Source of the DNA: Microbispora sp. H13382
GTDB lineage: Bacteria; Actinomycetota; Actinomycetes; Streptosporangiales; Streptosporangiaceae
Reading direction: 5' to 3'
Length of the DNA stretch: 64,000 bases
NCBI RefSeq assembly: GCF_014161445.1
Contig: NZ_JABBXA010000020.1
Span: 1-64,000, forward strand
Position 1 is the stretch's first letter, and each line of letters starts with the position of its first letter. The notes below the pieces were generated by a model. That model made no database searches and was not told the DNA's origin. It worked only from the letters and a program-made list of their open reading frames with translations. The translations under genes and the position numbers were made by a program. Positions 51,138 through 55,587 of this stretch are shown piece by piece.

Positions 51138-52985
51138 TTAGCCATGCCGCAGGGCCCTGACCATCCGTCTGGCCACCGTAAGCGGGGTGGCCACGCGCAC
51201 CGACACGCTGAGCCGCCGGTTGACCGCCGTGGCGTACGGCCGGACCGTCCATTGCGCGGGGACCCACCGCAACGGACCCCGCGGGTCCCGGGACGCCGTG
51301 TCCCATGGCAGCGGGCCGCGCCACCACCGCAGCGGCCGGTCGAGCGTGTCCGCGTCGGCGACCTTGACCGGAAAACGCACCGAAGGGCCGCCGAGGTCGA
51401 GTTCGAGGTAGGCGTCCCACGTGCCGGGCGGCAGGCCGGCCGTCTCGGCCGTGAACTCCCCCGGCCCGGACGCCACGGCCCTCTCGCGGTGCTCCCGCCC
51501 CGTCGTCCGCTCGCGCCAGATCAGGTGACGTACGGCCCCGGCGGCGGCCTCGTCGCCCACCCTCGCCCGGCCCTCGACCCGCAGCCGCCTGCCCCGCCAC
51601 CACGCCCGCGTCAGCCGTACGGCCGCGGGGACCCGTACGACGTGCCCCCCGACGTCGAGACCGAGGTGGCCTTGGGACCGGGTCAGGAAGGGCACCGCGA
51701 CGACCCCGCCGACCAGGTGGGCGGCGGGAACGCCGGCTTTGTCGTCCCGGCGTGAGCCGAGCCGGGCCAGCCTGCGCGCGCCCTCGCACTCGACGGCGAC
51801 GTGGACGTCCCACACTCCCGTCGGCAGTGCGGCCGCGTCGACCACGGCCGTGAAGGATCCGGCTCCGCCGCGGGTCACGCGGGGCACGCGCTCCGCACGC
51901 GTCAGGCGTTCGCGCAGCACCAGGCCCACGGTGGTGTCCGGCGGGGATATATCCAGACCGGCGAGGGCGGCCCACCCTTCGATCACCAGGTGGTCGCCCC
52001 GCCACTCGACGCCGGTCAGCCGGTGCCGCAGCGGCGCGGCCTCGACGCGCGCGAGCCGTACGAGCCGGTCGGGATCGTCGAGCGCGGCGACGCGGGCGGC
52101 GTCCACGCCGTCGAGATGGGCGCGTACCCCCGGCGTCAGCCACTGCCCGCAGATGTCGGCGACCTCGACGGCGATCTTCTCGCGATGGGCCTCGCACGCG
52201 GCCAGGAACGGCGCCCCGAGCTGGGCGAGCACGTCACGGCGCAGGTGCCGCAGGAGCAGGCGGTCGCGCAGCGCGCCGGGCGGCACGTGCCGCGCCATGA
52301 CCTCGATGGGCGTGCGGACCACGCGCAGCCAGCCGAGCGGATCGCGCGCGGACGCCTCGTTCCCGCCCTCGGCGTGGTAGCAGTCCCGGTCCGCGACCAC
52401 GGAGATCACCCGGGCATGGCAGTACGCGTGGACGGCGAAGGTCATGTCCTCGCCACGCCGGTGCGTCTCGTCGAAGCGGATGGCGTGCCGATCGAGAAAG
52501 TCCCGGCGGAAGAGCTTGAAGCAGGACAAATCATCGTAGACGGCGATTAAGGAGGCCTTGTCGGCGCTGTCCCGCAGCCCCTGACGCGCACCGGCGATCC
52601 TCCCCACGACGACGTCGGCGCCGGTCCGGTCGGCCGTGGCGACCAGGCGGGCCAGCGCGTCGGAGGCGAGGTGGTCCCCGGCGTCGCAGAAGAAGACGTA
52701 CCGCCCGGCCGCCCGTTCGAGTCCGCGGTTGCGGGCGCCTCCGGGCGTGCCGGGCTGGGCGTCCCGCATCACGGTGATCAGGCGGGGATGGTGCGCGGCG
52801 TAGAGGTCGAGGAGTGCCGGGGTCCCGTCCCGTGAGCCGCCGTCGACCACGATGATCTCTTTGGCGACCCGCTGCACGAGCAGCGAGGTGAGGCAACGGT
52901 CGAGTGACGCCCGGCGGTTGTACGCCGGGACGACGACGCTGACGTCGATCCCCCGATCGGCGCGTTGGCCACTCCCCGTATCCAT
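51138..52985 (-). CDS. Family 2 glycosyltransferase with long C-terminal beta region
   Basis: 615 residues. GT-A domain in the first 230 residues: VSVVVPAYNRRASLDRCL, EIIVVDGGSRDGT, NRGLERAAGRYVFFCDAGDH (DxD-like CDAGD) and the acceptor Asp in RRGEDMTFA. The last 300 residues contain two repeated beta-sandwich-like segments (VAVPFLTRSQGHLGLDVGGH and the like) that are often attached to teichoic-acid or wall-polymer glycosyltransferases in actinomycetes. The donor and acceptor are unknown. It ends one base from the Nur box. Confidence 0.88.
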   Translation of the reverse strand: MDTGSGQRADRGIDVSVVVPAYNRRASLDRCLTSLLVQRVAKEIIVVDGGSRDGTPALLDLYAAHHPRLITVMRDAQPGTPGGARNRGLERAAGRYVFFCDAGDHLASDALARLVATADRTGADVVVGRIAGARQGLRDSADKASLIAVYDDLSCFKLFRRDFLDRHAIRFDETHRRGEDMTFAVHAYCHARVISVVADRDCYHAEGGNEASARDPLGWLRVVRTPIEVMARHVPPGALRDRLLLRHLRRDVLAQLGAPFLAACEAHREKIAVEVADICGQWLTPGVRAHLDGVDAARVAALDDPDRLVRLARVEAAPLRHRLTGVEWRGDHLVIEGWAALAGLDISPPDTTVGLVLRERLTRAERVPRVTRGGAGSFTAVVDAAALPTGVWDVHVAVECEGARRLARLGSRRDDKAGVPAAHLVGGVVAVPFLTRSQGHLGLDVGGHVVRVPAAVRLTRAWWRGRRLRVEGRARVGDEAAAGAVRHLIWRERTTGREHRERAVASGPGEFTAETAGLPPGTWDAYLELDLGGPSVRFPVKVADADTLDRPLRWWRGPLPWDTASRDPRGPLRWVPAQWTVRPYATAVNRRLSVSVRVATPLTVARRMVRALRHG

Positions 52986-53197: not shown

Positions 53198-53207
53198 TGA
53201 GCGCTCA
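53198..53207 (+). promoter_or_regulatory. CebR-like operator palindrome
   Basis: TGAGCGCTCA, a perfect 10-base palindrome 26 bases before the start of the GH1-LacI fusion. Its core GAGCGCTC equals the centre of the CebR site TGGGAGCGCTCCCA, so autoregulation by the LacI half is expected. Confidence 0.65.
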
Positions 53208-53232: not shown

Positions 53233-55587
53233 ATGCGCACCGCGTTGTTCCCAGAGGGTTTCGTCTGGGGAGTGTCCACGTCCGCGTTCCAGATCGAGGG
53301 CGCCACCGACCGCGACGGCCGGGGCCCCTCGATCTGGGACGCCTTCGCGGGCGGGGGATACGGCGACCCGGCCTGCGACCACTACCTGCGCCACGCCGAG
53401 GACGTCCGGCTGATGCAGGACCTGGGCATCGCCGCCTACCGGTTCTCCGTCAGCTGGCCACGCGTGCTGCCCGAGGGGCACGGCCGCGTCAACGGCCCGG
53501 GGCTCGACTTCTACGACAGGCTCGTGGACGAGCTGCTGGAGGCGGGCATCGCGCCGTACGCCACGTTGTACCACTGGGACCTGCCGCGGGCGCTGCAGGA
53601 CGCCGGGGGGTGGACCTCACGCGACACCGCCGGCCACTTCGCCGACTACGCCCGTGTCGTGTACGACAGGATCGGCGACCGGGTGGACACCTGGTTCACC
53701 TTCAACGAGCCGTGGGTGGCCGCCTTCCTCGGCCACGCCTCAGGGGTGCACGCCCCGGGCCTGCGGTCGGCGGCCGACGCCTTCGTGGGCGCCCACCACA
53801 TGCTTCTCGCGCACGGGCTGAGCCTGGAGGCGCTGCGCGCGGGGGGCGCCGCCAGAGCCGGCATCGTGCTGAACCTCTCCCCCGTCCTCACTCCCGCTCA
53901 GCTCGGGGACATGTCCACCGACGTCCCCGCGGAGGACGCCGAGGCGGCGGCGAGGATCGACACCCTGCACAACCGGCAGTTCCTGGAGCCGGTGCTGCGA
54001 GGCCGCTACCCCGCCGAGCTGCTCCCTTTGGTCGAGAGGACCGCCGGGCTCGGCCACATCCGCGACGGGGACCTCGACCTCATCGGACGGCCCGTCGACC
54101 TGCTGGGGGTCAACTACTACACGCCCATCACGGTGCAGGCCCAGCCCAGCGCCGCGGCCGACCCGGCCTTCCCGGGCAGCGAGGGCGTTCTGTTCAGCAG
54201 TGTGCCCACGGCCGTCACCGCGATGGGCTGGCCCATCATGCCGAACGGCCTGTCCCTGGTCCTGCGGCGCCTGTCCGAGGACTACCCCGAGACCGAGCTG
54301 ATGATCACGGAGAACGGCGCCGACTTCGAGGACGTCGTGACCGGCGACGGCATCCACGACGTCGACCGGATCAGCTTCGTCGAGGAGCACCTGCGGGCCC
54401 TGCGGACCTCGATCGACGAGGGCGCCCGGGTCCGCGGCTATCTGCTGTGGTCGCTGCTCGACTGCGTCGAATGGGCGGACGGCTACCGGCGCAAGTTCGG
54501 CATCGTCCACGTCGACTTCACCACGCAGCGGCGGCTGCTCAAGGACAGCGCGCTGTGGTATCGCGACGTCATCAAGCGCAACGGGCTCGGCGCGGAGCGG
54601 CCGAAGCGGCCCACGCTCGAGACCGTCGCCGCTCGCGCGGGCGTCTCCAGGGCCACGGTCTCGCGGGTCGTGAACGGGGACGCGCGGGTCAGCCCCGAGG
54701 TGCGCGCCGCGGTGCTGCGCGCCGTGCAGGAGCTGGGCTACGTGCCCAACGCCGCCGCCAGGAGCCTCGTCACCCGGCGGACCGACTCCGTCGCGCTCGT
54801 CCTGTCGGTCCCCCGGCACGGCGGCGAGGCGCTCACCTCCGCCGTCGTCCAGTACGTCACCAGCGTCCTCGAAGGAGCCGGCAAGCAGATCACCCTCATG
54901 CTCGCCGACACGGCCGAAAGCCATCGGCGCATCATCCGGCACGTCGAGGCGCGGCAGGTCGACGGGGTCGTGCTCGTCCCTCCGGACGGCCCGGACACGC
55001 TCACCGAGCGGCTCGCCCGCACCGGGGTGCCGGTCGTGCTGCTCGGCAAGCCCGTGATCGCCTCCCTCGTGCCGCACGTGGACGTGGACAACGCCGGCGG
55101 CGCGAAGGCGGCCACCCGGCACCTCCTCGACCGGGGCCGCCGCCGCATCGGCGTGATCTGCGGCCCCATGGACCTCGTCGCCGTACAGGACCGCCTCAAC
55201 GGGCACCTGGCCACGCTCCACGAAGACGGACTGCGGCCGGCGATCGCGCTCGCCGGCCTGGACGGCGCGTCGGGCGCCGCCGCGGCCCGCGAGCTCCTGT
55301 CCGGTGACCAGGACCTCGACGCGGTGTTCGCCACCTCGGACGAGCTGGCGATCGGCGCCATGGAGGCGGCGCGCGAGAGGGGACTGCGGGTGCCGGAGGA
55401 TCTGGCGGTCGTCGGCTTCGGCGACATCCACGCCGCCTCCTGCACGACCCCGCCGCTCACCACCGTCCGGGTGCCCGCCGCGGACCAGGCCCTGGCCCTG
55501 GCGCGGCTGCTCCTGTCCCGCCTCGACGGTCGTCACACCAGCCCCGTCGTCCTCCCCACGCGCCTGGTGGTCCGCGCTACGACGTGA
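53233..55587 (+). CDS. GH1 beta-glucosidase fused in frame to a LacI-family repressor
   Basis: 784 residues in one frame. Residues 1-449 are a whole GH1 beta-glucosidase: acid/base Glu159 in TFNEP, nucleophile Glu360 in MITENGAD, aglycone-site NEP and WSLLDCVEWADGY all present. After an eight-residue link (450-457) comes a complete LacI/GalR regulator: HTH at about 458-505 (KRPTLETVAARAGVSRATVS), hinge, and a periplasmic-binding-type sensor domain (about 515-784) with VPEDLAVVGFGDI. No ATG or GTG in frame precedes the HTH, so separate translation of the regulator is unlikely unless a rare start is used. In related actinomycetes these are two genes (for example bglC and cebR). A sequencing error that removed a stop cannot be excluded. 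Confidence 0.88.
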   Translation: MRTALFPEGFVWGVSTSAFQIEGATDRDGRGPSIWDAFAGGGYGDPACDHYLRHAEDVRLMQDLGIAAYRFSVSWPRVLPEGHGRVNGPGLDFYDRLVDELLEAGIAPYATLYHWDLPRALQDAGGWTSRDTAGHFADYARVVYDRIGDRVDTWFTFNEPWVAAFLGHASGVHAPGLRSAADAFVGAHHMLLAHGLSLEALRAGGAARAGIVLNLSPVLTPAQLGDMSTDVPAEDAEAAARIDTLHNRQFLEPVLRGRYPAELLPLVERTAGLGHIRDGDLDLIGRPVDLLGVNYYTPITVQAQPSAAADPAFPGSEGVLFSSVPTAVTAMGWPIMPNGLSLVLRRLSEDYPETELMITENGADFEDVVTGDGIHDVDRISFVEEHLRALRTSIDEGARVRGYLLWSLLDCVEWADGYRRKFGIVHVDFTTQRRLLKDSALWYRDVIKRNGLGAERPKRPTLETVAARAGVSRATVSRVVNGDARVSPEVRAAVLRAVQELGYVPNAAARSLVTRRTDSVALVLSVPRHGGEALTSAVVQYVTSVLEGAGKQITLMLADTAESHRRIIRHVEARQVDGVVLVPPDGPDTLTERLARTGVPVVLLGKPVIASLVPHVDVDNAGGAKAATRHLLDRGRRRIGVICGPMDLVAVQDRLNGHLATLHEDGLRPAIALAGLDGASGAAAARELLSGDQDLDAVFATSDELAIGAMEAARERGLRVPEDLAVVGFGDIHAASCTTPPLTTVRVPAADQALALARLLLSRLDGRHTSPVVLPTRLVVRATT

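Follow-up and report, generated by a model that had tools for sequence, protein, structure and literature searches.

Are a beta-glucosidase and a transcriptional repressor really made as one protein, how would such a protein have arisen, and are both of its parts still in use? These questions were raised by one gene in the window (the whole 64,000-nt stretch of soil-actinobacterium DNA that was analysed), in which a single frame encoded a complete GH1 beta-glucosidase and then a complete LacI/GalR regulator (Table 1). A TAG stood immediately 5' of the ATG, so that 53233 was the earliest possible start of the frame. The one-piece reading of the frame in the first-pass annotation was confirmed by ORF, Pfam and NCBIfam analyses; the eight residues that it had counted between the domains were nine between the Pfam domains.

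Table 1. Positions in the window of the fused gene, its parts and a candidate operator.
Feature	Position	Strand	Basis and remarks
Fused gene, GH1 beta-glucosidase + LacI/GalR regulator	53233..55587	+	784 codons + stop; ORF, Pfam, NCBIfam
GH1 domain, residues 4-451, catalytic E159/E360	53242..54585	+	Pfam PF00232, conservation
Linker, residues 452-460, place of lost stop/start codons	54586..54612	+	Junction comparison, no usual start codon
LacI helix-turn-helix (HTH), residues 461-506, recognition helix about 472-480	54613..54750	+	Pfam PF00356, conservation
Hinge region, residues 507-516	54751..54780	+	Alignment; model confidence low at 505-516
Ligand-binding core, residues 517-784; altered pocket positions 583, 585, 676, 702, 730	54781..55584	+	Pfam PF13377
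Palindrome TGAGCGCTCA, candidate own operator, 26-35 nt before ATG	53198..53207	.	Sole copy in window

Pfam returned Glyco_hydro_1 (496 bits), the LacI HTH (58 bits) and, at residues 629-784, Peripla_BP_3 (112.4 bits), and the GH1 half scored above the cut-off of the NCBIfam equivalog BGL TIGR03356 (536.6 vs 478.5 bits). The first half was predicted to be a GH1 beta-glucosidase by family profile and both catalytic glutamates, and the second a LacI/GalR regulator by HTH, hinge and periplasmic-binding-like core, the HTH being internal here, after GH1. With enzyme and DNA-binding domain in a single conserved chain, the product was classified from its sequence as a putative bifunctional enzyme-regulator. 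The HTH helices and the core were in place in the AlphaFold model (32 fused sequences; mean pLDDT 78.9, pTM 0.60), and confidence was low around the hinge. The 50 Foldseek matches listed were all GH1 enzymes, and the LacI half was thus without fold confirmation. A glycosyltransferase family 2 gene with a TarS-type linker domain lay divergent from the fusion gene (window 51138-52985, minus strand).

The frame was open across the junction in 83 of 341 genomes of the family Streptosporangiaceae, own genome included, under 11 genus codes (49 of the genomes under g4), and was open over nearly its whole length in 79 of the 83 and only partly in G200, G219, G034 and G247. Within the window's genus, the open junction recurred in 9 of 15 genomes. 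Named carriers, among the matches listed and within a related-locus set made of the best 80 of more, included Microbispora, Microtetraspora, Nonomuraea, Sphaerisporangium and Thermocatellispora. Outside the family, no open frame over both halves was found among the matches listed, either at the level of the order (345 genomes, limit of E 1e-210) or in 396 genomes sampled evenly from the phylum (limits of E 1e-180 and 1e-128; at most two candidates scored per genome). GH1 and LacI were split by stops in two proteobacterial plasmid loci (L155 and L156, the two examined; there were 78 further non-Nonomuraea plasmid records). A description of a GH1-LacI fusion was not found in literature titles and abstract starts, a coverage that excludes most subscription papers.

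The family-wide recurrence of the open junction ruled out chance or a read error. That a stop codon was removed by an error of sequencing or assembly, a source of the fusion refuted by this recurrence, is also opposed by open junctions in 46 named loci of separate assemblies, and its probability is negligible.

Enzyme and regulator were separate genes in relatives, both by junction comparison and by family search, in line with the first-pass annotation, and stood in the same order as in the fused gene. Four unfused loci (L030, L031, L075 and L076) had a single in-frame TGA and then the regulator ATG at the exact 25-codon spacing of the fused genes, so that loss of a stop and a start codon explains the fusion without insertion. 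The remaining unfused pairs had differing spacings and were frequently out of frame. The fused junctions printed spanned 25 codons throughout, except for 23 in L073; a few fused loci without a match to the search pattern were not printed. In two trees, both made by a quick method, one with 85 rows (53 fused) and one with 88 rows (51 fused, five outgroup rows), fused rows made up one side of a single branch (SH-aLRT 100 in each), and they nested among unfused rows in the tree with the outgroup. An old, real enzyme-repressor fusion, best explained by one origin, is the conclusion to which these sequence comparisons lead.

An internal start in the same frame might still yield a separate regulator, as from neighbouring genes. 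In-frame ATG, GTG or TTG codons occurred at residues 446-463 in 12 of 52 fused genes, and unusual start codons are possible. Against this, the places of the starts differed among the 12, and none was present in the other 40, the gene in the window included, in line with the first reading that no usual start precedes the HTH; the linker was also under purifying selection (dN/dS 0.16). An internal start is accordingly very unlikely, and plain neighbouring genes were rejected on the junction comparison, the recurrence in the family and the start-codon survey.

The unfused pair was usually present in the same genome as the fusion. The own genome kept it at G000:C44 (L126), behind permease and solute-binding-protein genes and with 60% identity over residues 5-783. 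When 25 genomes with the fusion were tested, the unfused regulator was found as well in 23, sharing 77-100% identity with the own copy; the two without it were G172 and G216. In this pair (G000:C44, Actinomadura, Sphaerimonospora and others), domains and their order were those of the fusion, and the fusion's recognition-helix residues were common to nearly all rows; it differed from the fusion in being two proteins, encoded beside transporter genes at the end of an ABC-transporter operon. An ORF named TnpB-like by reading lay between the permease and the unfused GH1 gene (L126:4275-5417, plus strand). A second GH1 gene and a LacI gene occurred side by side on opposite strands at G000:C2:96926-99296, with GAGAGCGCTCTC just before the LacI gene.

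Both halves of the fusion look selected and used, as judged from alignment. The catalytic residues E159 and E360, noted at the outset, did not vary in any of the 52 fused or the 38 unfused relatives aligned, and Q20, H114, W115, N158, E413 and W414 were likewise invariant in all 52 fused rows (identical sequences counted once; L073 dropped by the length filter). Residues R473, T475, S477 and R478 of the recognition helix were invariant in the same rows, with residue 474 being either A (45 rows) or S (7 rows). Thirteen close fused genes, compared in 78 pairs (73 in the case of the linker), gave a median dN/dS of 0.26 for GH1, 0.19 for HTH plus hinge and 0.24 for the ligand domain, with the value for the linker given above.

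These values bear on the reading in which the LacI half is a passenger that only dimerises or stabilises GH1 and has lost DNA binding. The operators are only candidates, and seven early-branching fused proteins had a looser ligand domain (0.29 of columns conserved at 95%), both of which would suit it. The invariant recognition helix argues against it, as does a mean pairwise identity in HTH plus hinge of 0.881 in late-branching fused proteins vs 0.879 in unfused regulators, and loss of DNA binding is judged improbable. In the 44 late-branching fused proteins, 0.45 of ligand-domain columns were conserved at 95%, vs 0.48 in free regulators, the early/late split having been read off the tree by the analyst. 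The late fused ligand domain was thus about as constrained as that of free regulators, which suggests that it was remodelled rather than left to decay.

The pocket itself differed between fused and unfused proteins. All 32 unfused regulators (six more distant rows, present in the first alignment of 38, being excluded from pocket and conservation counts) had S583, H585, F676 and D730; in the 52 fused rows, S583 was kept in 2 and H585 in none, F676 was seen once (one gap), and residue 730 was D in 25, G in 26 and a gap in one. At position 702, unfused rows had N (26 rows) or S (6 rows), and no fused row had N. Of the 268 positions of the ligand domain, 19 were conserved in unfused proteins and lost in fused ones; the corresponding figures were 5 of 452 for GH1 and 3 of 64 for the stretch of linker, HTH and hinge. 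The altered positions presumably correspond to the LacI inducer contacts W220, N246 and D274. D619 and R654 were each retained in 51 of 52 fused rows, the latter with one gap.

A cellobiose-type (BglC/CebR) repressor, in which the attached glucosidase destroys its own inducer as a built-in feedback, draws on some of the same evidence. The GH1 site and the HTH were intact, D619 and R654 were kept, and the nearest solved regulator by sequence was the LacI-family entry 5ysz (E 3.7e-68), which we take to be T. fusca CelR. Pocket residues constant in unfused regulators were nevertheless lost in fused ones, and at positions 583, 585 and 730, where CelR and the unfused regulators share S, H and D, the fused protein of the window had P, D and G. 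The DNA sites opposed it further. The operons of the closest unfused pairs carried GAGAGCGCTCTC, not the CelR box TGGGAGCGCTCCCA (PMC3377646), and their setting was one of beta-1,3-glucan, so that the tie to the cellobiose systems BglC/CebR-CelR made in the first-pass annotation was not supported as it stood. A scan of the 400 nt upstream of 60 fused loci found no CelR-type box, each locus having at least 3 mismatches of 14; classical CelR/CebR autoregulation was rejected on this basis, and the cellobiose-type feedback as a whole is unlikely. The idea in the first-pass annotation that the glucosidase could consume the inducer at the operator is weakened by the lost pocket residues and by the missing box. 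In the own genome, 26 CelR-type boxes (up to one mismatch) were counted vs 5 in the reversed control, probably the mark of a separate cellulose-type regulon.

Of 22 unfused loci, 19 carried the site GAGAGCGCTCTC, and the other three were more distant ones. As an exact 12-mer it occurred 10 times in the own genome vs once for the reversed control. Neighbours of five of these sites were a GH3 gene, a GH64 beta-1,3-glucanase gene, another LacI gene, a solute-binding-protein gene that diverges from a CBM6-bearing GH81 gene, and a gene sharing 79% identity with the GH16 glucanase of Nonomuraea, so that several beta-1,3-glucanase genes were preceded by the site. Of the remaining five sites, four lay next to an unscanned ORF, a 648-aa Pfam-less protein, an F5/8-type-C protein and a kinase, and one lay inside an ORF. 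Most, not all, of the recognisable neighbours therefore fit beta-1,3-glucan use, and the sites point to these actinomycetes having a regulon for beta-1,3-glucan.

A GH16 endo-1,3-beta-glucanase gene with CBM6 adjoined the fusion in 25 of 46 named fused loci (Nonomuraea), with neighbours called by a home-made codon-bias rule that misses genes; the glucanase of L055 matched 7eo3 (E 1.4e-155). Exact GAGAGCGCTCTC was present in 25 of the 25 GH16-bearing loci, with two sites in 20, and all 45 sites lay within 150 nt of the called start of the GH16 gene (0.004 expected per locus). It was not found in the flanks of the other 21 of the 46, nor in the window with up to one mismatch allowed. The two genomes without the unfused regulator, G172 and G216, kept the fusion; the former had no site and the latter a single one that fell within an ORF. 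The GH16 sites may for that reason serve the unfused regulator alone. In the Nonomuraea-type locus L055 (3285-5992), the fusion gene was divergent from genes for an AsnC-type regulator, a 269-aa Pfam-less protein and a class III aminotransferase, whose clusters recurred in 20, 32 and 30 fused loci, respectively.

For the window itself, TGAGCGCTCA is the candidate operator: its one copy compared with 0.06 expected, and 6 of 100 shuffles had one. Among 60 fused loci, with repeat copies from one genome counted separately, 14 had it, none of them from Nonomuraea. A further upstream element, GACTGRGCGC, resembled the -10 part of a promoter. The search for it was anchored on GACT, which gave the element in 38 loci and left a further 15 without a usable match, and its conservation was thus partly built in.

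The reading preferred here, considered moderately probable, is that a duplicated GH1 and LacI gene pair was fused by loss of a stop and a start codon and kept both functions, with the product repressing beta-1,3-glucan genes through a regulator with an altered pocket. The ancestral pair would have been a GH1 gene followed immediately by a LacI gene, the two closing a sugar ABC-transporter operon as they do in relatives. A second copy would have arisen in a common ancestor of some Streptosporangiaceae and, as junctions and trees support, would have lost the in-frame stop between the genes together with the regulator start codon. As conservation shows, the resulting single protein has kept both the glucosidase site and the LacI reading head. 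We infer that, most likely, its dimer continues to bind a GC-centred palindrome and represses genes for beta-1,3-glucan use, the neighbouring GH16 glucanase gene in Nonomuraea being the best candidate target. The effector pocket changed along with the fusion, and the fused regulator probably answers to a small molecule other than that of the unfused regulator; alternatively, the glucosidase may have taken over part of the sensing. In a stronger form, which is possible at low probability, the protein would be an enzyme-gated LacI repressor, with occupancy of the GH1 site by beta-1,3-gluco-oligosaccharides controlling DNA binding via the short linker and with the LacI pocket repurposed.

Compared with known systems, the fusion resembles CelR/CebR with BglC of Thermobifida and Streptomyces in that a GH1 beta-glucosidase gene lies near a gene for a LacI-family regulator, and differs from them in that those are separate genes in a setting of cellulose rather than beta-1,3-glucan. 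PutA, BirA and NadR, like the fusion, carry an enzyme and a specific DNA-binding part in one chain; to our knowledge, a glycoside hydrolase attached to a LacI/GalR regulator is found in none of the three. Compared with these three, any coupling of catalysis to repression in the fusion is a putative one. Across much of a bacterial family, an enzyme and a regulator from the same pathway occur in a fixed 1:1 ratio within a single chain, and the unfused pair, usually kept in the same genome, is an internal control. It can be tested here whether signalling is altered when metabolism is fused to transcription, and how the sensor of a repressor evolves with an enzyme attached; the fusion is a naturally occurring case in which to ask whether metabolism can be coupled directly to gene control.
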